Positions 22,166 through 34,252 of a stretch of DNA of 64,000 nucleotides are shown here, in pieces (the first letter of the stretch is position 1; each line of letters begins with the position of its first letter). Under the pieces are notes generated by a model that was not told the origin of the DNA, did no database searches, and saw nothing but the letters and a program-made list of their open reading frames with translations. Position numbers and translations under genes: made by a program. Origin of the DNA: Halopseudomonas sabulinigri (GTDB lineage Bacteria; Pseudomonadota; Gammaproteobacteria; Pseudomonadales; Pseudomonadaceae). The DNA lies in the NCBI GenBank assembly GCA_011053055.1, contig DRHT01000049.1, positions 62,001 through 126,000 of the forward strand, in the 5' to 3' direction.

Positions 22166-23434
22166 ATGTCCACGAGCAAAGTACCACACAGCCCGATCAG
22201 CCACGGCCGTATCAACCTTGAGCAACAGCGCAAACGCGCTAAAGAGTTACTCAAAGCGATCAAGGCTGGCGATAGCGACGCATTGCTACGCATCAGTCGC
22301 TGGCTGGCGCCGCGCAGTGAGCCATTGCGCCTGGCCGAAGCCCAGTTAGTTATCGCTCGCGAGGCCGGTTTTAGCAGCTGGCCAGCGCTCAAGCAGCATA
22401 CCGACAGCCTTGACCACGCCAGCCGCCAGTTGCTGCGCCATGGTGATCATGAACTGCGTACTTTGCATATTCGCTGCGGTAGCGATATTCAGCACAGCCT
22501 GAAGACCGCCGGTTTCAGCGGCGACTTTCTTGAGTTCTCCGACCCCTTTTGCATAGGCCCGCTGAGCGCCGCAGAGCCGGAAGTCTTGTTGCGTCAACGC
22601 GCTGATTTTCTTGCCAAGGCGTTCGATATAGCACCAGCCGACGCCTTGGCCCGTCAGCAGCAAAGTTACCGAAAGCTGCAACAGCTGGATGATTACCAAC
22701 GCATCGTGCTCTGGTTTGAACATGACAGTTATGATCAGCTGATTCTTGCTTATCTATTGCACCGGCTGCACGAGATCCGCCCGACAGCACGGGTAGAGTT
22801 GATCGCCGTAGATCAAATCCCCGGAGTGCAGCGATTTATCGGCATAGGCCAGCTGGCTCCAGAACTGCTTGGTTGGTTGTGGCCCCGCCGTAAGCTGGTC
22901 AAAGAAGCACTGCTCGAGCTAGGCACACAAGCCTGGCGCGCGTTGAGCGAGCCAAGCCCAGAGCATTTATTGGCATTAATCAAAAGCGGCACGCCCGCGC
23001 TTCCTATGCTGGGCAAAGCACTAGATCGTCATTTACAGCAGCTCCCAGGCCAGCAAGATGGTTTAGGGCTGACCGAGCGGCTGAGCCTGCAAGTTCTGCA
23101 ACAACAGGGGCCGCTGACCGCCGGGCAAGTATTTCGCGCATTGATGATGGAGCGTGAACCTCTGCCCTACCTTGGCGATATGATGTTTTGGTGGCTATTG
23201 CAACCGCTACTGACTGGCGAAGCGCCGCTACTGCAGATAGAGGACCAACAGCCGGATTGGCCGCAACGCATACTGCAGCTAACTGCGCGAGGCGAAGCGG
23301 TGCTGCGCGGCGATGCCGACGGTTTTAGCGCTCGCGCCACGCCCTATTGGGTGGGTGGTGTCAAACTGACACCCACCAAGGCGCATTGGCGTTACCACGC
23401 TGAGCACCAGCAACTGCATTACCACAGCACCTGA
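22166..23434 (+). CDS. DUF1835 domain-containing protein
   Basis: A 422-residue cytoplasmic protein. After an N-terminal ~80-residue helical segment (with WPALKQHTDSL), residues ~97-220 match DUF1835: LHIRCGSDIQ, a DFLEFSDPFCIGPL segment and IVLWFEHDSYDQLIL. The C-terminal part is helical and ends in an RATPYWVGGVKL strand region typical of DUF3658/DUF1835 proteins. Its function is unknown to me. GGGG lies five bases before the ATG. The 252-bp upstream gap holds only a 6-bp inverted repeat, GGCGTC/GACGCC, near 21942-21960. Confidence 0.78.
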   Translation: MSTSKVPHSPISHGRINLEQQRKRAKELLKAIKAGDSDALLRISRWLAPRSEPLRLAEAQLVIAREAGFSSWPALKQHTDSLDHASRQLLRHGDHELRTLHIRCGSDIQHSLKTAGFSGDFLEFSDPFCIGPLSAAEPEVLLRQRADFLAKAFDIAPADALARQQQSYRKLQQLDDYQRIVLWFEHDSYDQLILAYLLHRLHEIRPTARVELIAVDQIPGVQRFIGIGQLAPELLGWLWPRRKLVKEALLELGTQAWRALSEPSPEHLLALIKSGTPALPMLGKALDRHLQQLPGQQDGLGLTERLSLQVLQQQGPLTAGQVFRALMMEREPLPYLGDMMFWWLLQPLLTGEAPLLQIEDQQPDWPQRILQLTARGEAVLRGDADGFSARATPYWVGGVKLTPTKAHWRYHAEHQQLHYHST

Positions 23435-23560
23435 GACGTCGCGCCGCTGCCCGCCAGCGGCCTGAGATGTTAAGCTAGCGCACTGTTTCGCAGCGCTTCT
23501 GCCGCACCCCATGCCGGAAGCCCTGCCCACCGCATAGCCAACGAGCCGGAACCCACACCG

Positions 23561-24361
23561 ATGCCACAACCAAATCCTTTCAAGCCGGTCGTCCTCTGTC
23601 TGTCCGGTCACGACCCCAGCGGCGGCGCAGGTTTGCAAGCCGACATCGAAGCGCTGCTAGCGCAAGGCTGTCACGCCGCTCCAGCGGTTACCGCGCTCAC
23701 CGTACAGGACACCGTGGATGTGAAAGACTTCCGCGTACTGGACAAAGAATGGGTACTAGCCCAGGCCAACGCCGTACTCAACGACATGCCGGTATCGGCG
23801 GTTAAGCTAGGCATGCTGGGTAGCGTAGAAATGGTCGATACCGTCATCGAGCTGATGCGCGCCAACCCCGGCTTGCCATTGGTCTGCGATCCGGTGTTAC
23901 GCGCCGGCGGCGGCGGCTCGCTGGGTAAAGAGGATGTCGGCTTTGCTATGCGTGAGCGCCTGCTGGCTGTTGCCTTAATCGCCACGCCGAACCTGCCAGA
24001 AGCGCGCATCCTCGCCGAACTGCCCGAGGGTAGCGCTGACGAATGTGCTGCCAAGCTGATGCCGTTCTGCCAAAATTTATTGATCACAGGTGGGCACGGC
24101 GACGAAGCCGAGATACACAACCGCCTGTATTGCAAAGACGGCAGCCAGCATGATTTCACCTGTGCTCGCCTCCCCGGCAGCTACCACGGCTCCGGCTGCA
24201 CATTGGCCAGCGCCCTCAGTGGCCGTTTGGCACTGGGCGAAGAGTTGGTCAGCGCCGTTCGCTCAGCACTCGATTACACCTGGCGCACCCTGCGCGACGC
24301 CGAGCAGCCCGGCCACGGCCAGTACGTGCCGCGCCGCCTGCCGCTGGATTTCTGTTCGTGA
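23561..24361 (+). CDS. thiD: Hydroxymethylpyrimidine / phosphomethylpyrimidine kinase
   Basis: A 266-residue ribokinase-fold kinase that phosphorylates HMP and HMP-P for thiamine synthesis. Visible motifs are [14 protein letters not shown] near the N-terminus, [25 protein letters not shown] and the anion-hole and catalytic [12 protein letters not shown] near the C-terminus. The stop overlaps the GTG start of thiE as GTGA. No TPP riboswitch is recognisable upstream. Confidence 0.95.
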
Positions 24362-24987
24362 GCCAGCGCGGCCTCTATGCGATTACCGATAGCGCGTTGC
24401 TGGCGGATGGCAAACTGCTGCCTTACGTGGAAGCTGCAATAACGGGCGGCGCACGTTGGCTGCAATACCGTGACAAGAGCAAAGACCCAAGCCGGCGGCT
24501 CGACGAAGCCAGCCATTTGGCGCAACTGTGCAAAGGTTATGACTGCCAGTTGATCATCAATGATGACCTGGCATTGGCGAGCCGCCTGGGCGTTGGCCTG
24601 CATCTGGGACAGGAAGATGGCTCGCTGCGTGAGGCGCGTCAACAACTTGGTTCACAAGCGCTGATCGGCGCTACCTGCCATGCGAGTCTGGAATTAGCTG
24701 AGCAAGCGGTCACTGACGGCGCCAGCTATATCGCCTTCGGCCGTTTCTTCCAGTCGGTCACCAAGCCCGGCGCGCCGGCAGCCACGCCTGTACTGCTGCA
24801 ACAAGCACGCAAACGCTTCACACTGCCGATCATCGCCATCGGCGGCATCACCCTGCACAACGCACCGCAATTACTCGGTGCCGGCGCCGACTACCTGGCC
24901 GTAATCAACGGCCTGTTCGGTGCCCCTGACGCTGACGCAGTAAAAGCACGCGCCAGTAGCTTCAGCCAACTCATTAACGCCTGTTGA
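24358..24987 (+). CDS. thiE: Thiamine-phosphate synthase
   Basis: A 209-residue TIM-barrel enzyme that joins HMP-PP and thiazole phosphate to form thiamine phosphate. It shows GLYAITD, the diphosphate-binding [37 protein letters not shown] and IIAIGGI. It begins at a GTG overlapping the thiD stop and ends just before hemL, the gene order I recall from P. aeruginosa (thiD-thiE-hemL). Confidence 0.95.
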
Positions 24988-24998
24988 GAGGATATTCC

Positions 24999-26285
24999 AT
25001 GTCTCAGTCCCGCTCCGAAACTCTGTTCGCCAACGCCCAAAAGCACATTCCCGGGGGCGTAAACTCGCCAGTGCGTGCTTTCAAGAGCGTCGGCGGCACG
25101 CCACTATTTTTCAAGCATGCCGAAGGCGCCTACGTTATCGATGAGGACGACAAGCGCTATGTCGATTACGTTGGCTCCTGGGGGCCAATGATTCTTGGTC
25201 ACGGCCATCCGGAAGTACTGGAGGCTGTACGCAACCAATTGCAGCACGGTTTATCTTTCGGCGCGCCAACCGCGATGGAAACCGAGATGGCCGACCTGGT
25301 CTGCGCTCTGGTGCCATCGATGGACATGGTGCGCATGGTCAGCTCCGGCACCGAAGCCACCATGAGCGCCATCCGTCTGGCCCGTGGTTACACTGGTCGC
25401 GACAGCATCATCAAGTTCGAGGGCTGCTACCACGGCCACTCCGACAGCCTGCTGGTCAAGGCCGGCTCGGGCGCACTCACCCAAGGCGTACCGAACTCCG
25501 GTGGCGTACCTGCTGCCTTCGCCAAACACACGCTTACATTGCCCTTCAACGACATTGACGCAGTCAAGCAACTGCTGGCCGACGTTGGCCAGGAAGTAGC
25601 CTGCATCATCGTCGAGCCAGTCGCCGGCAACATGAACTGCGTACCGCCAGCACCCGGCTTTCTGCAAGGCCTGCGCGATGCTTGCGACGAGCACGGCGTG
25701 GTACTGATTTTTGACGAGGTAATGACCGGTTTCCGGGTTGCCCTCGGCGGCGCCCAAGCGCTCTATGGCGTTAAGCCGGACCTGACCACCTTCGGCAAAA
25801 TCATCGGCGGCGGTATGCCGGTCGGCTGCTTTGGCGGCAAGCGTGAAGTCATGGAGCAGATTGCGCCACTTGGCCCTGTCTACCAGGCAGGCACCCTGTC
25901 CGGGAATCCATTGGCCATGGCCGCAGGCCTCACTACGCTCAAGCTGATCAGCCGCGACGGCTTCCACAGCGAGCTGACCGACTACACCAGCCGCCTGCTT
26001 GCGGGTCTGCAGCAACGTGCCGACGCCGCGGGCGTGCCCTTTGTGACTACTCAGGCAGGTGGCATGTTTGGTCTGTACTTTTCCGGGGCAGACGACATCG
26101 TCACCTTCGACGACGTCATGGGCAGCGACTCGGACCGTTTCAAACGCTTCTTCCACCTGATGCTGGAGGGCGGTGTCTATCTGGCACCAAGTGCCTTTGA
26201 AGCTGGCTTCACATCCATAGCTCACGGCGATACCGAACTCCAGCTGACACTGGACGCCGCCGAGAAGGCGTTCGCCGCATTATGA
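24999..26285 (+). CDS. hemL: Glutamate-1-semialdehyde 2,1-aminomutase
   Basis: A 428-residue class-III PLP aminotransferase-fold enzyme forming 5-aminolevulinate, the tetrapyrrole precursor, from glutamate semialdehyde in the C5 pathway. Landmarks are [45 protein letters not shown] and the PLP-lysine segment [14 protein letters not shown]. The ATG at 24999 has GAGGAT upstream, and the resulting length fits the ~426 residues of E. coli HemL; an in-frame start 15 bases earlier lies inside thiE. Confidence 0.96.
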
Positions 26286-26941
26286 TGAGTCTGATTTATG
26301 GGCTGCTCAGTGCAGCCCTGTTTGGCATCAGCGCATGGTTATGGCGCCGTCGCGGCGGTCTAAACGAGAACGCTCGCGGCGCGATCACTGCAGCCCTGCT
26401 GGCACTGCTGCTGCCCGCGGCCAGCAGTCTGCTGCTCACACTGGACAGCTTTGCATTGAGCGAAACCCTGACCCATATACAGCGCATGCTTGGCTTGGCG
26501 GCGCAAAATATCAGCCTGCCACTGCTCGGGTTAACTGCGTTCTATATGGCTTTTGGTCTGCGTTGGCAGCCAGCCAACTGGGGCCGCATTTTGCTCGGTT
26601 TGATGGCTGCCTTCGAGCTGACCCGGCGCATGGACATGCAGCAAAGCTACCAGTGGAGCATTAATCTGCTGAGCCTTGCCTTGCTGTTGCTTGCCGGCGC
26701 GCTGATCCTACGTCGCGACTTGCGCCCCATGTTATTCGGCAGCCTTGCTGCAATCGGCATCGGCGCCCCGCTATTCAGCCCTGGTGCTGCCGCGCTAGCG
26801 GGCCTGCTTAGCAGCTCACCGTTGGCACTCTGGTTATTCCCCACTTTGCTGGGCGCTGGACTGGCAGTTGGCCTGCTCAGCGAACAGGCGCACAATAGCC
26901 ATAATGAAAGTGTCGAAGCACCGAACGCCGAGAGGACCTGA
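26282..26941 (+). CDS. Uncharacterised multi-span membrane protein
   Basis: A 219-residue inner-membrane protein with about six hydrophobic segments, short loops and a polar tail ([16 protein letters not shown]). I do not recognise the family. The ATG overlaps the hemL stop (ATGA), and the Sel1 gene follows 7 bp later, so it is in the hemL operon. As I recall, an uncharacterised protein sits in the same place in P. aeruginosa. No catalytic motif is apparent. Confidence 0.7.
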
Positions 26942-26948
26942 ACACACC

Positions 26949-27554
26949 ATGTATCGCCTGCTGCCAAGGCTTACCCTGATCAGCCTGCTGCTGTTGCCTG
27001 CCACCCAGGCCAACGCCGAGACTGAAAATCCGCTGCTGATCAGCGCAGACGACCGCTGCGCTTTTGAGCGTGTGGACAACGAAAGCCTGCCATTGGCAAT
27101 CGACACCTGTCTTGGCGCAGCAGCTGACGGCGATATGAAAGCGCAATACGAGCTAGGCCAGCTCTATTACAGTGGTGATCGGGTGGAGCAAAACTACGAC
27201 ACCGCCCTGCAATGGTTGGAACAAGCCTCAATTCAAGGCGAGCCCCGCGCGCAGTATCGCCTCGGTATGATGCACTTCAAAGGCGAAGGCGTGCGGCGCA
27301 ACCTACCCCAGGCCTACATCATTTTGAAAATGGCCTCCATCAACGGCCACGACGCCGCTATGGACAGCGCCGATCTCGTCGCCCTACAGATGAATCAACA
27401 AGAAATGAACGCCGCCACGCATGTGCTGGGCACGCTGTTTCGGGATTATTTGGCGCAGATTCGCGAAGAGCAGTTGAATGGGACGCTGAAGATGGAAGAA
27501 CCGCCAGAGCGGCCTGATTCGAATGCGCAAGAGATTGAGGAGCTGTTGGAGTAA
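26949..27554 (+). CDS. Periplasmic Sel1-repeat protein
   Basis: A 201-residue secreted protein: signal peptide MYRLLPRLTLISLLLLPATQ ending near ANA-ETE (about residue 23), then two to three Sel1-like TPR repeats (DMKAQYELGQLYYSGDRV, EPRAQYRLGMMHFKGEGV, QAYIILKMASINGHD), then an acidic tail. Sel1 repeats mediate protein contacts; the partner is unknown. The ATG at 26949 gives the clear signal peptide, with GAGAGGA upstream at a long spacing; an in-frame ATG at 26904 would hide the signal. Last gene of the hemL run. Confidence 0.8.
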   Translation: MYRLLPRLTLISLLLLPATQANAETENPLLISADDRCAFERVDNESLPLAIDTCLGAAADGDMKAQYELGQLYYSGDRVEQNYDTALQWLEQASIQGEPRAQYRLGMMHFKGEGVRRNLPQAYIILKMASINGHDAAMDSADLVALQMNQQEMNAATHVLGTLFRDYLAQIREEQLNGTLKMEEPPERPDSNAQEIEELLE

Positions 27555-27593
27555 ACGCTGTTATTTTCCTCTATCTACAACCCGAGCATGTTG

Positions 27594-28637
27594 TCATGTC
27601 GTCGCTCGCGAGCTTGCGTGCTGAGAATGTCGTTTTATAGCCTCGCGCGCTTTGCGCCAGTCACGGGGACTTTGTCGATACCACTCATGAAATGCACGAC
27701 TGAATGCGGATTGGCTGGCGTAACCCAGCAGATCAGCCATCTGCGCGATACTGATAGTCGAGTCTTGCAGGTAATAGCACGCCATATTCTGCCGAACCTC
27801 CGTTAGCAGCTTTTGGAAGTTAGTGCCCTCCCTGGCCAATTGTCTCTGCAACTTGCGTGTACTAACCTTCATATACTCGGCGACCTGCTCAATATTCGCT
27901 CTTGCATCCGGCAGAAAACGGCGAATCAGTTGCTGAATCAATCTCGGCAGCTCTTGCTCAGACATGTGCTCCAGATTATCCAAGTGCCCTTGAATCAAGC
28001 GATGCAACACCGGGTCTGCCGTGTCCAAGGTCACATCCAGCAAAGCAGCGTCGAACATCCATCCGTTATAGACCGAATTAAAGCTCGGCAAGATACCTAC
28101 CACTTGCCGGTAATGGCGTGGCTCAACTACTGCGGCATGTTGGAACAACAAGGCCTGAGGTCGCCAGCGGCTGCCAAGCAACGTGCTTAACATTTGCATG
28201 CCTACGCCCAACGCCCTTTCCACGGCATGGCGCGAACCAAATACAGCAGTATCCGTAATCGCATAGGAAAGAATCGCGTGGCTGCCATGCTCCTCCAGCG
28301 TTACCGCTGCAGCACCGCTGTGTACGTAAAACTGACGCGTCAGTTCATTCAAGGCCGTTCGCACATCCTTGGCATTACGCATCAGGTAAAACAGGGGCCC
28401 AAACAAGCTGACATCCTGCGATACCCCATATTGCAGGGCGAATAAGCGATTGCCGCTATGCAGATCGCAATTATTCAGCAACGCAACCAACTTGCGAAAT
28501 GGAATCAGGTTATCGCCGTGTTGCTCTACGTCGCTGGGCAAACCGACTTTCGCCAACATTTCCATCGGCTGGAGACCTTGGCTGATAGCAAATGCGGAGA
28601 AATCAGAAAGCACTGAAGCGCGAGCGAATACTGCCAT
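27594..28637 (-). CDS. AraC-family regulator (arabinose-binding-like N-terminal domain)
   Basis: A 347-residue transcription factor. The N-terminal ~190 residues fit the 'Arabinose_bd' sensor domain of OruR/ArgR-like AraC proteins (FRKLVALLNN, NRLFALQYG, LFYLMRNAKDVRTALNEL). The C-terminal ~100 residues are a double helix-turn-helix: ANIEQVAEYMKVSTRKLQRQL and then SIAQMADLLGYASQSAFSRAFHEWYRQSPRDWR. The ATG at 28637 is preceded by GGAGGGG with six-base spacing; an ATG at 28652 is in frame but poorer. It is divergent from the sulfatase-like gene and is likely its activator; two near-identical boxes 21 bp apart lie in the shared region. Confidence 0.9.
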   Translation of the reverse strand: MAVFARASVLSDFSAFAISQGLQPMEMLAKVGLPSDVEQHGDNLIPFRKLVALLNNCDLHSGNRLFALQYGVSQDVSLFGPLFYLMRNAKDVRTALNELTRQFYVHSGAAAVTLEEHGSHAILSYAITDTAVFGSRHAVERALGVGMQMLSTLLGSRWRPQALLFQHAAVVEPRHYRQVVGILPSFNSVYNGWMFDAALLDVTLDTADPVLHRLIQGHLDNLEHMSEQELPRLIQQLIRRFLPDARANIEQVAEYMKVSTRKLQRQLAREGTNFQKLLTEVRQNMACYYLQDSTISIAQMADLLGYASQSAFSRAFHEWYRQSPRDWRKAREAIKRHSQHASSRATT

Positions 28638-28870
28638 GCCGGGCCCCTCCATGGTTAAAAAGCGGCGTTAATTTGTCGCCAATTGGAATATTCGTGACGC
28701 CAATTATCAAATTTTTATTGATCAATTAGAGCAGCATAGCCTCAGATTCACAGTCCGAAAACAGCGGATGGTAGAGAAGTAAGTAGCTTTATGTGATCCA
28801 GCCGGGATATTCGCAGCGCGTATTAATCCGACAGGTGAATTACGCCAGATAACAACAATGAGGATTCAAC
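28638..28870. promoter_or_regulatory. Divergent promoter region with 21-bp-spaced direct repeats
   Basis: TGTCGCCAATT (28674-28684) and TGACGCCAATT (28695-28705) differ at one base and are exactly 21 bp apart, two helical turns, as expected for half-sites of an AraC-family regulator. Downstream is an AT-rich stretch with the palindrome ATTGATCAAT (28717-28726) that could serve as a promoter element. GAGGA stands before the ATG of the sulfatase-like gene. Confidence 0.6.
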
Positions 28871-30685
28871 ATGGCTTTCTCCAACACCTCCAAACTCCTT
28901 TGTGCGCTGATTGCGCTCAATAGCGCACCGCTTTACGCAGCGGATTGGACACATTACGACCGCAACCCTGACTTCCAACCCACGACGTTACCCACCGGGG
29001 CAATTTCCAATATAGAAGAATTGCTCAAAGTAAAACCTATGCTGCGTATAGGCCCGATGGCTGATGCCAAAGCGCTTCCAGTAAACGAAAACACGTGGGT
29101 GATAAACGGCTACTTCTATGGCCCGGTGATTATCGAGACCGAAAACGGTCTACTGGTATTCTCTTCAGGCGAAAACACAGAAGACGGCAGTAACTTCCGC
29201 CGAATTATTCGCGAACAAATCAGCACGAAGCCAATCATCGCGCTGTTTTACGACCATGCCCACTATGCCAAAGGCGCCTCCACCCTGCTGGACGGCGACA
29301 AAGCCATGATCGTAGCCCACCCGGATTCCAATAAAATTTTGCGCGAGTCTGGCTCGCTCACTAACCCGCTGATTCCGGAGCTACTACCCTCGCTCGACGG
29401 CCGCGCGGAAATACATTTCGGCAGCAAACATCCAACCACCGGGCCCGACGCACGTATGGATGGCACAAACCTTGAGCTAGGCCGTGAGAGCGGTTGGATG
29501 CCAGCTACCAAGACCCTGACCGATGGCGAAACCATGACCGTTGATGGCGTCACCATTCAAGCCTTTCACGCCAAAACAGATACCGAGGATTCGCTGACAT
29601 TCTGGCTGCCAGAAAGCAAAATGGTCATCGATAATGTCTTGTGGCCAATCGTACCTAACCTCTACACGTTGCGAGGCGACCGCTACCGTGACCCGCAAGA
29701 ATGGATGAAGGCACTGCGCAAAATTCGTGAGCTTGAACCCGAAATCGAAATTAGCGTTGGCGGAGGCTCGCTACCGTTGCGAGGCAAAGAGAACATCGCC
29801 GAAGCGGGCAATGCCCTGCACGATTCTGTGGCCTACATCTACGACCAGTCGATCCGCCTTACCAACCTCGGCGTGCCAATGGATCAATTGGGCAACAACA
29901 TCCACTTGCCCGACTCGCTGCGCAAGCACCCGTACGTGAACGAGCTATACGGCCAGTTTGAAACCTGGCCGGAAGCTATTGCCGAACGCAGTCAAGGTTG
30001 GTTCTCAGGCTATGCCGAAGACCTGCACCGCCTGCCACGCGAAGTATATGCAAACAACCTGATCAAGCTCGGGGGCGGCGCTGGCAAAGTGCTGCAGGCA
30101 TATAAAGACGCGATGGCCAAAGGTGAATATCTCTGGGCCAAAGATCTTGCCACCGAGCTGTATTACAGCGACCGCGACAATGCTGAATACCGCCAGGCAC
30201 TGGCCAACGTATTCCGGACGCTGGCGCAGTACAGCCCAGGCTCAATTGTGCGTAACTTTTACACCGCTGCCGCGCTTAGCCTCGAAGGCAACCAAGACTT
30301 CAGCCTTGGGGTAGTGCAGCCAGCAGCCTGGGTCAAAGAGGACACCAATCGAGCAGTCAACTCGATGCGCACCCGTTTAAACCCGGAGCTAGCAACGGGG
30401 GCTGAGGGTGTCTTGAGCTTTAACATTGATGGCAACGTATCGGCCTTGCACGTCCGCAACTCGGTGGCTGAGTACGTACCAAACCCAGGCAGCCACTACC
30501 GCCCAGTCGATGCCACGATAAAAGTCGACAGCGACATCTTCACCGATTATTTCCGCGGCGAACTGTCCACCAAAGATTTTTTGTCCAAATCGACTATTAC
30601 GGGCGAAAGCGCAAAGCTGATGGGGCTTTTTGACGAATACCACCGACTGCCGATGTACCCAACTGAAGCGTTGTTAAATAACTGA
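28871..30685 (+). CDS. Secreted alkyl-sulfatase-like MBL-fold protein with an altered metal site
   Basis: A 604-residue protein with a signal peptide (1-23, cleavage near LYA-ADW) and the three-part layout of SdsA1-type alkylsulfatases. These parts are a metallo-beta-lactamase-like domain (~70-305), the alkylsulfatase dimerisation domain (~370-480, with GWFSGYAEDLHRLPRE and RNFYTAAALSLEG), and an SCP2-like C-terminal domain (~490-604). NLYTLRGDRYRDP (263-275) matches the SdsA1 NLYTLRGA region. However, the zinc motif HxHxDH is replaced by H129-A-H131-Y-A133-K134. The ENATHT region reads DNVLWP (254-259), and the later HHWP histidine is replaced by GGGSLP (297-302). So it is a close structural relative with several metal ligands absent: either a subfamily with other chemistry or a non-catalytic binder. 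It is divergent from the AraC-type gene and ends at a strong terminator. Confidence 0.8.
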   Translation: MAFSNTSKLLCALIALNSAPLYAADWTHYDRNPDFQPTTLPTGAISNIEELLKVKPMLRIGPMADAKALPVNENTWVINGYFYGPVIIETENGLLVFSSGENTEDGSNFRRIIREQISTKPIIALFYDHAHYAKGASTLLDGDKAMIVAHPDSNKILRESGSLTNPLIPELLPSLDGRAEIHFGSKHPTTGPDARMDGTNLELGRESGWMPATKTLTDGETMTVDGVTIQAFHAKTDTEDSLTFWLPESKMVIDNVLWPIVPNLYTLRGDRYRDPQEWMKALRKIRELEPEIEISVGGGSLPLRGKENIAEAGNALHDSVAYIYDQSIRLTNLGVPMDQLGNNIHLPDSLRKHPYVNELYGQFETWPEAIAERSQGWFSGYAEDLHRLPREVYANNLIKLGGGAGKVLQAYKDAMAKGEYLWAKDLATELYYSDRDNAEYRQALANVFRTLAQYSPGSIVRNFYTAAALSLEGNQDFSLGVVQPAAWVKEDTNRAVNSMRTRLNPELATGAEGVLSFNIDGNVSALHVRNSVAEYVPNPGSHYRPVDATIKVDSDIFTDYFRGELSTKDFLSKSTITGESAKLMGLFDEYHRLPMYPTEALLNN

Positions 30686-30705
30686 TATTTAGTACTACCA
30701 AAACT

Positions 30706-30742
30706 AAAAAAGCCCTATAGCGAAACGGCTATAGGGCTTTTT
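30706..30742 (+). terminator. Intrinsic terminator after the sulfatase-like gene
   Basis: A-rich run, then GCCCTATAGC (30712-30721), a six-base loop, GCTATAGGGC (30728-30737) and TTTTT. Perfect 10-bp stem. The A-run makes it usable from the DUF1820 side as well. Confidence 0.92.
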
Positions 30743-30818
30743 GGCATCTGATTCGCAGATGAGCAGGTAAAAAACTGGCTGCAGATGTTCTCTTGGCCGT
30801 CGGTACACGCCAGCCTGA

Positions 30819-31154
30819 TCAGCTATCCGACCGCGGCGGCATCGGAAAATGCATCACGTTACTACCACTATCACCCTTAGCCTCGCTGATCTTGGCCGTA
30901 CCTACCCGCTCAACTTCGTCGATGCGAATAATCGAGTGCACAGGGATGAAGCTGCGTTTGACGCCATCAAACTGGTTCTTCAGCTTCTCTTCGCCCGGAT
31001 CAACGAGCAGCTGAGAGCGTTCACCGAAGATCAGCTCTTCGATTTCCATAAAGCCCCACAGCTCGCTCTGGAAAATCTGCTGCGCGTAGAGTTCAAACAC
31101 CTGTCCCTGGTTGTTGAAGATAATCCGAAAGACCGGCTGACTTTCTTTACTCAT
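30819..31154 (-). CDS. DUF1820 family protein
   Basis: A 111-residue cytoplasmic protein of the DUF1820 family: PVFRIIFNNQGQVFELYAQ, WGFMEIEELIFGE and VHSIIRIDEVE. Function unknown; the fold is probably a small beta-barrel. The start is the ATG at 31154; the longer in-frame reading to 31241 runs into the miaB promoter. It is divergent from miaB, an arrangement I recall from other pseudomonads. Confidence 0.87.
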   Translation of the reverse strand: MSKESQPVFRIIFNNQGQVFELYAQQIFQSELWGFMEIEELIFGERSQLLVDPGEEKLKNQFDGVKRSFIPVHSIIRIDEVERVGTAKISEAKGDSGSNVMHFPMPPRSDS

Positions 31155-31263
31155 AGCGGGATAACCAACACCTTGAAAAACGCGTGAACGCCGCGGCGGC
31201 TGCCGTTCGGCGGGCGCGCATGATAGCACAGCGCAGGGCATAACAAAGGCCCCCGCTTGTGTG

Positions 31264-31269
31264 TATAAT
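31264..31269 (+). promoter_or_regulatory. -10 element (TATAAT) of the miaB promoter
   Basis: An exact TATAAT stands 36 bp before the miaB ATG in the divergent DUF1820/miaB gap. No good -35 hexamer is found at 17 bp, so it may need an activator or an extended -10 (TGTG precedes it). Confidence 0.5.
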
Positions 31270-31305
31270 CGCCCCTTTTCTCAAGTGATGCCCAGCGTAT
31301 ATCCC

Positions 31306-32646
31306 ATGGCCAAGAAACTCTTTATCCAGACCCACGGTTGCCAGATGAACGAGTACGACAGTTCTCGTATGGCAGACCTGCTCGGCGAGCACCAGGCAAT
31401 GGAGCTAACCGACCGCGCAGAAGACGCAGACGTCATTCTGCTCAACACCTGCTCGATCCGCGAGAAGGCACAGGAAAAGGTGTTTTCCCAATTGGGTCGC
31501 TGGCGTCCGCTGAAAGAGAAAAACCCTGATTTGATCATCGGCGTGGGCGGCTGTGTGGCTAGCCAGGAAGGCGATGCCATCCGCAAGCGCGCGTCTTACG
31601 TGGATGTGGTTTTCGGCCCACAAACGCTGCACCGCCTGCCTGAGATGATCAACGCCGCTCGGACCACACACAAACCTCAGGTTGACGTGAGCTTTCCGGA
31701 AATCGAGAAGTTTGACCGCTTGCCAGAGCCCCGCGTGGATGGCCCAACGGCCTTCGTCTCCATCATGGAAGGCTGCAGCAAGTACTGCAGCTTCTGTGTG
31801 GTTCCCTATACCCGCGGGGAAGAAGTCAGCCGACCCTTTGACGACGTCCTGGCCGAGGTAATTCACCTGGCTGAGAACGGCGTGCGTGAGGTTACTCTGC
31901 TGGGCCAGAACGTGAATGGCTTCCGTGGCGCAACCCATGACGGCAGTGTGGCCGACCTGGCAGACCTGATCCGTGTGGTAGCCGCAATTGATGGCATCGA
32001 CCGCATTCGTTACACCACCTCGCACCCGTTGGAATTCTCGGACAGCCTGATTCAGGCCCACGCCGAAGTGCCGGAATTGGTGAAGTACCTGCACCTTCCA
32101 GTGCAATCTGGCTCTGACCGGGTATTGGCCGGCATGAAGCGCAACCACACCGCGCTGGAGTACAAGTCACGAATTCGCAAGCTAAGAGCGGCAGTACCAG
32201 ACATCATTCTAAGCTCGGATTTCATCATCGGTTTTCCCGGTGAGACTGACCGTGACTTCGAGCAGACCATGAAATTGGTGGAAGATATTGGCTTCGACTT
32301 CTCCTATTCCTTTATCTACAGCTCACGCCCGGGCACCCCGGCTGCCGATCTGCCGGACACCACCCCGGATGAAGTCAAGAAGCAGCGCCTGCAGATCTTG
32401 CAGACCCGGCTGAACCAGCAGGGCTTTGAGAATAGCCGCCGCATGGCCGGTACCACCCAGCGCATTCTCGTGACCGACTACTCGAAGAAGGACCCTGGCA
32501 TGCTGCAGGGCCGTACCGAGCACAACCGTATTGTTAATTTCCGCAGCAATAACCCGCAGCTGATTGGCCGGTTTGTCGACGTGCTTATCGATGAAGCACT
32601 GCCCCACTCGCTGCGCGGCACACTGATCAGCGAGACGCTGCATTAA
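31306..32646 (+). CDS. miaB: tRNA-2-methylthio-N6-dimethylallyladenosine synthase MiaB
   Basis: A 446-residue radical-SAM methylthiotransferase that modifies i6A37 of tRNAs. The N-terminal UPF0004 domain supplies three cysteines for the auxiliary [4Fe-4S] cluster ([28 protein letters not shown]). The radical-SAM motif CxxxCxxC is [16 protein letters not shown], and a TRAM domain ends the protein. The ATG at 31306 gives the conserved N-terminus [19 protein letters not shown]; an ATG at 31261 would lie on the -10 element. It begins the miaB-phoH-ybeY-corC-lnt run. Confidence 0.96.
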
Positions 32647-32790
32647 CGCCATTTATCCTGCACACTGCAGTGATCTGTCTGACTCCGGCGCTCGGCTTCC
32701 GACCGCCGGAAAATGGCAGTGCTTTGCAGGGTTAAATTTGCGCGCTATTCTGTCGTTTCATCCATGCCATCTGGCGACCTACGGACTATT

Positions 32791-33804
32791 TTGAACGCAC
32801 CTCTACATATCCATCGTTTCAGTATCGAACCCGTTGACCCCCGGCGCTTTGCCGCCCTTTGCGGTCAGTTCGACGACAATCTCCGTCTTATTGAACAGCG
32901 CCTCGGCATTGAAGTACGCAATCGCGGAAACCACTTTGAGCTGATTGGTGAGGAAACCCTCACCCGCTCCGCCGAGGCCGTGCTGCGTCAGCTGTACCGC
33001 GAAACGCGCGACAGCAAAGACCTCAGCCCCGATACCGTGCATCTATTTCTGCAGGAATCCGGCCTCGAGAACCTGAGCGAAGCGCTAAACAGCAGTAGTG
33101 ACCACAAACCGGTGATTCTGCGTACGCGGCGCATGACTATTCAGCCGCGTGGGCCAAACCAGCAAAGCTATGTGCGCTCGATTCAGCAACACGACATCAA
33201 TTTTGGCGTTGGTCCTGCCGGCACTGGCAAGACATATTTAGCGGTAGCCTGCGCGGTAGATGCGCTGGAGCGTGAGCAGATCAGCCGAATCCTGCTGGTA
33301 CGCCCAGCGGTAGAAGCTGGCGAAAAACTGGGTTTTCTACCTGGCGATCTAGCGCAGAAAATCGACCCCTATCTGCGCCCGCTGTACGACGCGCTCTACG
33401 AGATGCTCGGGTTTGAGCAGGTCACCAAGCTGCTTGAAAAGCAAGTTATTGAAGTCGCGCCACTGGCCTACATGCGCGGCCGCACGTTAAATAATTGTTT
33501 TATCATTCTGGATGAAAGCCAGAACACCACGCTGGAACAGATGAAAATGTTCCTCACGCGTATTGGTTTTGGCTCTACCGCAGTGATCACCGGCGACATC
33601 ACCCAGGTGGATCTACCGCGCGGTACCAAATCCGGTCTGAGCCACGTTATTGACGTACTCAAAGATGTACCCGGTATCGGCTTCACCCACTTCCTGTCCA
33701 AGGACGTAGTGCGCCACCCACTGGTGCAGCGCATTGTAGAAGCCTACGACCGTTTTGAAACGCAGCAGGAAATCGAGCGCCAGGAGCGCAAAAATGAGCA
33801 TTGA
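32791..33804 (+). CDS. ybeZ: PhoH-like ATPase YbeZ
   Basis: A ~337-residue cytoplasmic PhoH-family ATPase with Walker [27 protein letters not shown], Walker [12 protein letters not shown] and [11 protein letters not shown]. YbeZ works with the endoribonuclease YbeY in rRNA processing. The start is uncertain: a TTG at 32791 ([10 protein letters not shown], as I recall for pseudomonad homologues, with CGGA upstream), an ATG at 32764, or an ATG at 32713. The stop overlaps the ybeY start, so the two are coupled. Confidence 0.93.
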
Positions 33805-34252
33805 GCTCGATATTCAGCGCGCCTCCGATGCGCCCGATCAACCAGACGACGACAGTTTTTTACGCTGGGTCGGGCTGGCATTGGGTGCCGGTACCGACCG
33901 TGAACTGACGATTCGCTTGGTAGATATAGACGAAGGCCAGAGTCTCAACCATACCTATCGCGGCAAAGACTACGCCACCAACGTACTGTCCTTTCCCGCC
34001 GACCTGCCCCCTGAACTTGACCTACCGCTACTCGGCGACCTGGTGGTTTGCGCTCCAGTGGTTGCCCGCGAGGCAACCGAACAGCACAAGCAGCTAAACG
34101 CCCACTGGGCACATATGGTCATACACGGTTGCTTGCATTTACTGGGTTACGACCATATTGACGACGCCGAAGCAGACGAAATGGAAGCCCTGGAGCGCGA
34201 ACTGCTTGCGCAACTTGGCATTGCTGACCCCTATCTAGACGATGATGAGTAA
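33794..34252 (+). CDS. ybeY: Endoribonuclease YbeY
   Basis: A 152-residue zinc-dependent single-strand endoribonuclease acting in 16S rRNA 3' maturation and 70S quality control. The zinc motif HxxxHxxxxxH is [11 protein letters not shown], preceded by [10 protein letters not shown] and HMVIHG. The ATG at 33794 lies inside the end of ybeZ with AGGAG eight bases before it, showing translational coupling. It is followed six bases later by corC. Confidence 0.95.

Follow-up and report, generated by a model that had tools for sequence, protein, structure and literature searches.

SdsA1 of Pseudomonas aeruginosa (PDB 2CFU) is a type III alkylsulfatase of SulfAtlas family S3, for which, in the available part of PMC5066984, the HxHxDH motif is a criterion. 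The zinc ligands of SdsAP are given in the accessible text of PMC5426288 as Asp196, His197, His367 and Glu322 for one ion, and His192, His194, Glu303 and Glu322 for the other, with Asp where SdsAP has Glu303 in the sec-alkylsulfatase Pisa1 (PDB 2YHE). On the Psychrobacter plasmid pP62BP1, the slf operon combines an SdsA1 homologue with a reversed Arabinose_bd AraC gene and genes for a GMC oxidoreductase, an aldehyde dehydrogenase (ALDH) and an acyl-CoA ligase, as described in the available portion of PMC3346939. Here we describe P0001, a protein with the fold of these enzymes that appears to have kept only one of their two metal sites, and P0002, the divergently encoded AraC-family regulator beside it, in a 64,000-nucleotide stretch of Halopseudomonas sabulinigri DNA (assembly GCA_011053055.1, contig DRHT01000049.1, positions 62,001 to 126,000; hereafter the window, in whose own numbering coordinates are given). 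P0001 belongs to the HxHY clade, a small conserved bacterial group whose members, judged from sequence, resemble functional enzymes whose chemistry has changed.

The gene of P0001 and the parts of it that carry the argument are as follows:

28871 to 30685, + strand: P0001, 604 residues, an HxHY-clade protein with the SdsA1 fold, probably exported (open reading frame (ORF), Pfam, PDB matches, fold, orthologues).
28871 to 28942, + strand: probable Sec signal peptide, residues 1-24 (MAFSNTSKLLCALIALNSAPLYAA), with a basic n-region, a hydrophobic core and an AxA-like end.
29252 to 29275, + strand: DHAHYAKG motif, residues 128-135, with both metal His kept, the Asp and His absent, and Tyr132 instead (alignment).
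29579 to 29590, + strand: Asp237-Thr-Glu-Asp240, the acidic site that matches SdsA1 Glu280 in position (alignment; ligand roles from the accessible text of PMC5426288).
29630 to 29689, + strand: DNVLWP...NLYTLRGDRYR, residues 254-273, the bridging-ligand position and sulfate-binding loop.
29759 to 29767, + strand: GGG, residues 297-299, site of the lost late metal His (alignment).

The signal peptide was read by eye from the sequence, by a rule that we take to apply here. Both the 604-residue ORF and the AraC ORF divergent from it are present as a preliminary description of this locus had reported; the span quoted there, 28638 to 30685, starts within the AraC gene. P0001 matches the Pfam family Alkyl_sulf_dimr with 98 bits (E 6e-28, cut-off 26) and Alkyl_sulf_C with 20.1 bits, under the cut-off of 27, and has no Pfam match to Lactamase_B at E up to 1. 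A phmmer search of the PDB returned YjcS-type, SdsA1, SdsAP and Pisa1 chains, with E from 1.3e-34 to 6.6e-23. An AlphaFold2 model built from ten sequences is of modest confidence (mean predicted local distance difference test score (pLDDT) 61.4, predicted template modelling score 0.58), and Foldseek places SdsA1 and YjcS at the top for it, at 21-22% identity. Superposed with VIA-align on YjcS and SdsA1, the model gives Z 19-20 over residues 60-476 with a root-mean-square deviation (rmsd) near 12 Å, which probably reflects domains misplaced in the model; against a B1 metallo-beta-lactamase (MBL), Z is about 19 and the rmsd 2.8 Å for residues 65-321. P0001 is an SdsA1/YjcS-type protein, 22% identical to SdsA1 across 337 structurally aligned residues. 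The SdsA1 layout previously proposed for it stands for the dimerisation domain and, by structure, the MBL fold, but is only weakly matched in the C-terminal domain.

The ligand positions were compared column by column in an alignment of nine HxHY clade members with ten intact HxHxDH relatives. Both His of HxH are identical in 19/19 sequences (His129 and His131 in P0001), and the Asp and His that complete HxHxDH are absent from all nine HxHY proteins, a loss for which the alignment suggests a two-residue deletion, HxH--Y (HAH--YAKG in P0001), as the best explanation. The gap appears in only part of the pairwise phmmer alignments, and none of them supplies the missing Asp or His. Asp237 and Asp240 are invariant in the nine. 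The bridging glutamate (SdsA1 Glu299) corresponds to Asp254 when the DN motif is matched and to Asn255 when the spacing to NLYTLRG is kept, a one-residue gap deciding between them; in the Vibrio orthologue L049, one residue shorter here, the spacing itself puts Asp at the bridging position, and Asn occupies both 254 and 255 in the four more distant HxHY proteins. The five closest members have Gly299 in place of the late His, which the other four retain.

Set against the full seven-ligand set of SdsA1, P0001 thus has two identical His, Asp for Glu280, Asp or Asn for Glu299, and three positions lost. The motifs HAHYAK (129-134), DNVLWP (254-259) and GGGSLP (297-302) lie where the preliminary description had placed them, and its picture of a conserved scaffold with selective ligand loss is borne out. 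Its statement that most zinc ligands are lost is not: only three of the seven positions are gone (the HxHxDH Asp and His and the late His), all of one metal site, and the column-wise comparison rules out general ligand loss. As far as the alignment can tell, P0001 has one chemically plausible metal site and has lost the other. A single-metal enzyme explains P0001 better than general ligand loss, because the loss is in one site only, the sulfate-binding loop is nearly intact and the change is clade-wide.

A second metal could nevertheless be held by replacement ligands, such as Tyr132, His150, His233 and Asp240, which would leave P0001 a two-metal alkylsulfatase. Tyr can bind metals, and every one of the nine HxHY proteins has Y132, H150 and D240, while H233 is invariant in the close five. 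H150, H233 and D240 are, however, also found in some relatives that keep HxHxDH, which rules them out as compensating ligands; Tyr132, being clade-specific, escapes this argument and is a possible replacement ligand. The two-residue deletion moreover shortens the loop bearing the second-site ligands, and we consider a rebuilt two-metal site very unlikely.

The sulfate-binding loop was compared with the pattern for SdsA1 given in the available part of PMC5066984. P0001 fits 19 of its 20 positions, the misfit being the first, with Asp instead of A/G/S/I/T. Across the nine HxHY members 16 to 19 positions fit, the first being missed by all and others by some; two of the ten HxHxDH relatives (L048 and L006) also miss the pattern, at 18/20 each. 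The loop Asn, Tyr and both Arg (N263, Y265, R268, R273) are identical in 9/9. Which residues of the loop contact sulfate is an assumption of ours. That none of the nine meets the pattern perfectly would suit a hydrolase that uses the same single-metal site on another ester (carboxylate, phosphate, lactone or sulfonate-like) and keeps the sulfate loop as scaffold. Context differs among relatives, the V. fortis copy having alpha/beta hydrolase and MarR regulator genes as neighbours, and MBL folds take many substrate kinds, according to the accessible text of PMC7785958. The invariant anion-loop residues speak against such a change of substrate, as do the slf-like and sulfatase genes close to some relatives, and we regard it as unlikely, if still worth serious consideration.

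The clade was assembled from several searches. A scan of genome_contigs requiring exact 8-residue stretches yielded Pseudomonas insulae (L034, 75% identity) and Variovorax sp. J22R24 (L033, 59%; 58-59% across alignments). Genome searches yielded G472 (56%), G1419 (48%, genus code shared with G1181) and G1181, which is V. fortis (34%); G1421 has two tandem HxHY genes, 34% and 32% identical to P0001, and the G472 stretch a second one at 31%. A lone oddity or sequencing error is ruled out, as four close orthologues carry the same loss. In a tree of 30 rows, the root of which is not known, a branch with 100/100 support separates the nine HxHY rows from the others, and a long stem (1.33, support 100/100) leads to the five close members. 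In the G472 orthologue (L052:7320-9065) a TGA lies within the match near the N-terminus, and the clean ORF begins only past the place where P0001 has its signal-peptide codons.

Conservation among the five close members is unequal, with identical positions making up 41% of the MBL domain (residues 70-330), 35% of the dimerisation domain and 26% of the C-terminal domain. Loops 122-140 (53%) and 251-275 (60%), two of four segments that bear ligands, are the most conserved segments examined. This pattern bears on the possibility that P0001 has no catalytic activity and serves as a binding protein, for instance by carrying or sensing amphiphilic anions in the periplasm within an AraC circuit. Three of seven ligands are lost, the module stands alone in the window, the GGG and Asp237 segments show no special conservation, and metal-less MBL relatives exist, namely the class-C type-2 flavodiiron proteins (PMC7785958, in its accessible text). 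The C-terminal region weakly matches Alkyl_sulf_C, the SCP2-like part. We take this part of P0001 to bind lipids. Against such a pseudoenzyme stand the His/His/Asp set, invariant in 9/9, the conservation of the two pocket loops, and the placement of some relatives within alcohol-oxidation gene groups, which together make it unlikely, in our view slightly more so than a change of ester, though it too is a serious rival. It had been suggested earlier that ligand loss might mean new chemistry, a different metal or a binding role; the first two are possible, and a pure binding role has become less likely given how strongly the two loops are conserved.

The clade is rare at the thresholds used. A close copy of P0001 was found in one of 58 genomes, its own, 36 of the 58 being other members of the genus; the next best scores there were G043 (28% identity) and G034 (30%). 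At E 1e-70 the genus of P. insulae gave 1/298 genomes (P. insulae itself) and the family of Variovorax 2/399 (Variovorax itself being one). With its own genome counted in each, the order of the window gave 1/390 and the phylum 4/398 at 1e-60, and the class 1/369 at 1e-50. A viral origin was rejected: viral_contigs gave no match for P0001 and no relative for one clade relative. An alignment scan there gave 41 loci at 23-26% identity, of which 21 were looked at and eight remained after collapse below 90% identity; HxHxDH is intact in seven of these eight, and the remaining one, a fragment, lacks that region. Two more alignment scans (A3 and A4) found no relative. A plasmid origin was likewise rejected: 167 plasmid records matched, all below 60% identity, the best of 15 listed being 33%. 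No metal-poor alkylsulfatase group was recognised in the literature searched, which mostly lacked subscription papers.

P0001 and its regulator form a module with the following parts:

27554 to 30809, no strand: two-gene module, which relatives lack; DNA similarity to G012 and G032 ends at 27553 and restarts at 30810.
27594 to 28652, - strand: P0002, AraC-family regulator with an Arabinose_bd N-domain and HTH_18 (ORF, Pfam), divergent from P0001.
28653 to 28870, no strand: divergent promoter region, 218 bp, with a 17-nt exact match to P. insulae.
28674 to 28705, + strand: direct repeat TGTCGCCAATT / TGACGCCAATT, 21-nt spacing, the proposed AraC operator, which starts the conserved block.
30707 to 30742, + strand: rho-independent terminator-like hairpin of 15 pairs, 6 GC, then a T run; it is nearly symmetric, and the scan lists it on the - strand.

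The AraC gene is, on comparison with P. insulae, the true partner of P0001. As had been proposed, the two are paired: identity to the P. insulae counterparts is 73% for the regulator, which is likewise divergent there, and 75% for the enzyme, and the two divergent promoters share a conserved block. P0002 is 30% identical to a second nearby P. insulae regulator and 26% to the Variovorax regulator; at the Vibrio orthologue LysR genes are nearby in place of AraC. The 17-nt exact match between the window and P. insulae intergenic regions (28700-28716; maximum in 300 shuffles, 11) sits in a 47-nt block of which 35/47 positions are identical. The copies of the direct repeat match at 10/11 positions, and such a repeat arose in 8/2000 Markov resamples at spacing 21 and in 37/2000 at spacings 18-25; it is proposed as a candidate AraC operator. 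A sigma-70 scan gave three promoter-like sites against 2.2 expected, none of them in the intergenic region. Two paralogues of the regulator were seen in P. insulae: one, 47% identical (L132:6096-8793), lies tail-to-tail with a PF00884 sulfatase gene at 31 bp; the other, 48% identical, is near DUF1302, DUF1329, DUF1254/DUF1214 and FMO-like genes. These contexts are too loose to serve as evidence.

The module lies among ten ORFs scanned from 22166 to 34249, with Pfam matches typical of thiD/thiE-like, Aminotran_3 (hemL), Sel1, DUF1820, UPF0004/SAM/TRAM (miaB), PhoH, YbeY and DUF1835 proteins and one without a match; the order in the window is hemL-like Aminotran_3, the unmatched ORF, Sel1, the module, DUF1820, miaB-like, PhoH and YbeY. 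The Sel1 neighbour is present in 37/37 same-genus genomes, own included. Thirty loci were fetched, 29 of them not its own; Sel1 and DUF1820 occur in one locus in 26 of the 29 and not in three, and none of the 29 has a match to P0001 or P0002 (E 1e-4). In G012 and G032 the module is replaced by unrelated spacer DNA about 0.6-0.75 kb long. The segment is unique to its own genome among those examined, in agreement with the suggestion of a self-contained module inserted in the hemL-miaB neighbourhood. The strong terminator described with it has the longest stem listed, but the scan in total found three terminator-like sites against 3.8 expected in shuffles. In two close relatives the spacers found between Sel1 and DUF1820 in place of the module (L099 and L100) are alike by eye, have no significant match to the window at that point, and may be a repeat or mobile remnant.

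Insertion of this kind could also have delivered a gene that is now decaying. No close copy exists in the 36 other same-genus genomes or at the 29 loci, and the guanine-plus-cytosine content of the module (0.51-0.56) is below that of the hemL side (0.58-0.61), though near that of the miaB side (0.52-0.58). The ORF is, however, intact, the motif is fixed across genera, and the regulator and promoter block are conserved; P0001 and its P. insulae orthologue differ with nonsynonymous and synonymous rates of 0.161 and 1.44 (NG86), a ratio of about 0.11. Decay is accordingly far-fetched.

The other HxHY genes have neighbours of several kinds. The P. insulae orthologue is accompanied by FadL/TodX, an alpha/beta hydrolase, a second AraC, SDR, cupin, a PF00884 sulfatase and a zinc alcohol dehydrogenase, and the Variovorax orthologue by a GntR/aminotransferase regulator, AraC, ALDH, a class II aldolase, a PF00884 sulfatase and two DUF3604 genes. 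In Vibrio G1419 the neighbours are LysR, a radical SAM/SPASM protein (read here as a sulfatase maturase), a PF00884 sulfatase, DUF1254/1214 and FadL. In G472 an acyl-CoA ligase lies 22 bp upstream in the same direction, with a GMC oxidoreductase and the second HxHY gene; G1421 has two GMC oxidoreductases, MFS, and its two HxHY genes with a 4-bp overlap. By analogy, these neighbour genes resemble the predicted slf organosulfate operon. A PF00884 match lies 2.7-5.9 kb from an HxHY gene in three of seven genomes (G1419, G059 and G058); none does in its own genome, V. fortis or G1421, and the G472 contig, at 10.7 kb, is too short to tell.

Some further observations were made at these loci. In Variovorax (L053:15799-18990) the DUF3604 genes are consecutive, the second being short, and lie downstream of the PF00884 sulfatase; no joint mention of DUF3604 and "sulfatase" was found in the literature searched. 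DUF1254/DUF1214 genes occur both near the Vibrio orthologue, next to its sulfatase and FadL genes (L049:13607-14983), and near the 48% regulator paralogue of P. insulae (L133:9502-10896). The paired HxHY genes, overlapping in G1421 (L051:7722-11212) and convergent in G472 (L052:4869-9065), are of different subclades, which suggests heteromers or consecutive enzymes.

Taken together, we tentatively favour, with somewhat less than even confidence, an AraC-regulated exported enzyme in which a single-metal MBL site acts on an organosulfate-like ester. P0001 would be exported and probably dimeric, with the type III alkylsulfatase fold, and would hold one metal ion by the retained "histidine" half, that is His129, His131 and Asp237 with Asp254 or Asn255 nearby, Tyr132 and Gly299 occupying the places of the lost second metal's ligands. 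The retained NLYTLRGxxxR loop would bind sulfate or a similar anionic head group, and cleavage of the ester would release an alcohol, then taken up and oxidised. P0002 may sense the substrate or product and bind the repeat in the shared promoter, switching on the P0001 gene and perhaps its own. We infer these steps, including export, dimerisation, metal number and identity, reaction, substrate, inducer and operator; directly observed are the sequence, the clade, the conserved ligands and anion loop, the pairing with the regulator, the promoter block and the insertion of the module.

Several points weigh against this organosulfate enzyme. The bridging Glu is replaced, with its exact equivalent hinging on one gap; the retained site is the one said, in the accessible text of PMC5426288, to lose zinc more readily in SdsA1 and SdsAP; and model residues 236-239 and 259-274 have pLDDT below 50. 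Neither the Asp237 segment (39%) nor the GGG segment (36%) is conserved above the MBL-domain average. No pathway gene stands beside the module among the ten neighbouring ORFs scanned, and none of the six PF00884 genes of its own genome is on the module's contig. The PF00884 proximity rests on three genomes, its Fisher p of about 8e-4 being rough, made after the pattern was seen and ignoring the others, and the slf route from alkyl sulfates to acyl-CoA is only predicted by its authors (PMC3346939, available portion). At the proposed operator, the P. insulae counterparts TGTCGTCTATT and CGGCACCAATT agree at only 6/11 positions (counted by eye), and the best 21-spaced repeat of that intergenic region is elsewhere.

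A bolder proposal, which we hold to be improbable, makes the HxHY clade a separate enzyme family derived from the alkylsulfatase fold, with a 2-His-1-carboxylate centre for a single metal ion (perhaps Fe(II) or Mn(II), not Zn), an invariant Tyr in the old ligand place of the site broken by the deletion, and a reaction other than two-zinc sulfate-ester hydrolysis, such as the cleavage of an anionic amphiphile by oxidation or elimination. The clade offers a natural test of whether MBL-fold sulfate-ester chemistry needs two metals: in all nine HxHY proteins the deletion cost one site two of its three private ligands, the five P0001-type members lost the third (late His to Gly), and the His/His/Asp of the other site and the anion-loop Asn, Tyr and Arg stayed invariant. 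Because S3 is defined with HxHxDH, such proteins would fall outside its definition, or be annotated as sulfatases through their dimerisation domain, as in V. fortis.

Compared with the named systems, P0001 is not filed as an S3 alkylsulfatase because HxHxDH is absent, as in all nine clade members, identity to SdsA1 is 22% over the 337 structurally aligned residues rather than at least 30% over about 600, and the full ligand set is lacking; it may still work like one. With SdsA1 it shares the MBL fold, the dimerisation domain, HxH, an acidic residue at Glu280, the NLYTLRGxxxR loop and a signal-peptide-like start, and differs in its 21-22% identity, in lacking the HxHxDH Asp/His and the late His, in Asp for Glu280 and in the weakly matched C-terminal domain. 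Pisa1 has the same fold and an Asp at the Glu280 position, but the accessible text of PMC5426288 describes conserved zinc-binding sites for it, one of two being apparently lost in P0001. P0002 is similar to QhpR (NCBIfam NF049968) over the whole model, at 229 bits, under the curated cut-off of 250. The slf operon, in the available portion of PMC3346939, likewise has a divergent Arabinose_bd/HTH AraC gene adjoining an SdsA1-fold enzyme, and genes of its GMC, ALDH and acyl-CoA ligase types are found again, in scattered form, close to HxHY relatives; SlfS, however, has the full zinc motif, and the window module is regulator and enzyme only, with no GMC, ALDH and acyl-CoA ligase genes in the same operon. 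The V. fortis protein of plasmid pLMG21557 (WP_261905484.1, "Alkyl sulfatase dimerization domain-containing protein") differs from P0001 in its 33% identity, its retained late His, Asn at 254, and MarR and alpha/beta hydrolase neighbours, but has the same HxHY deletion, D237, D240 and loop Asn, Tyr and Arg.

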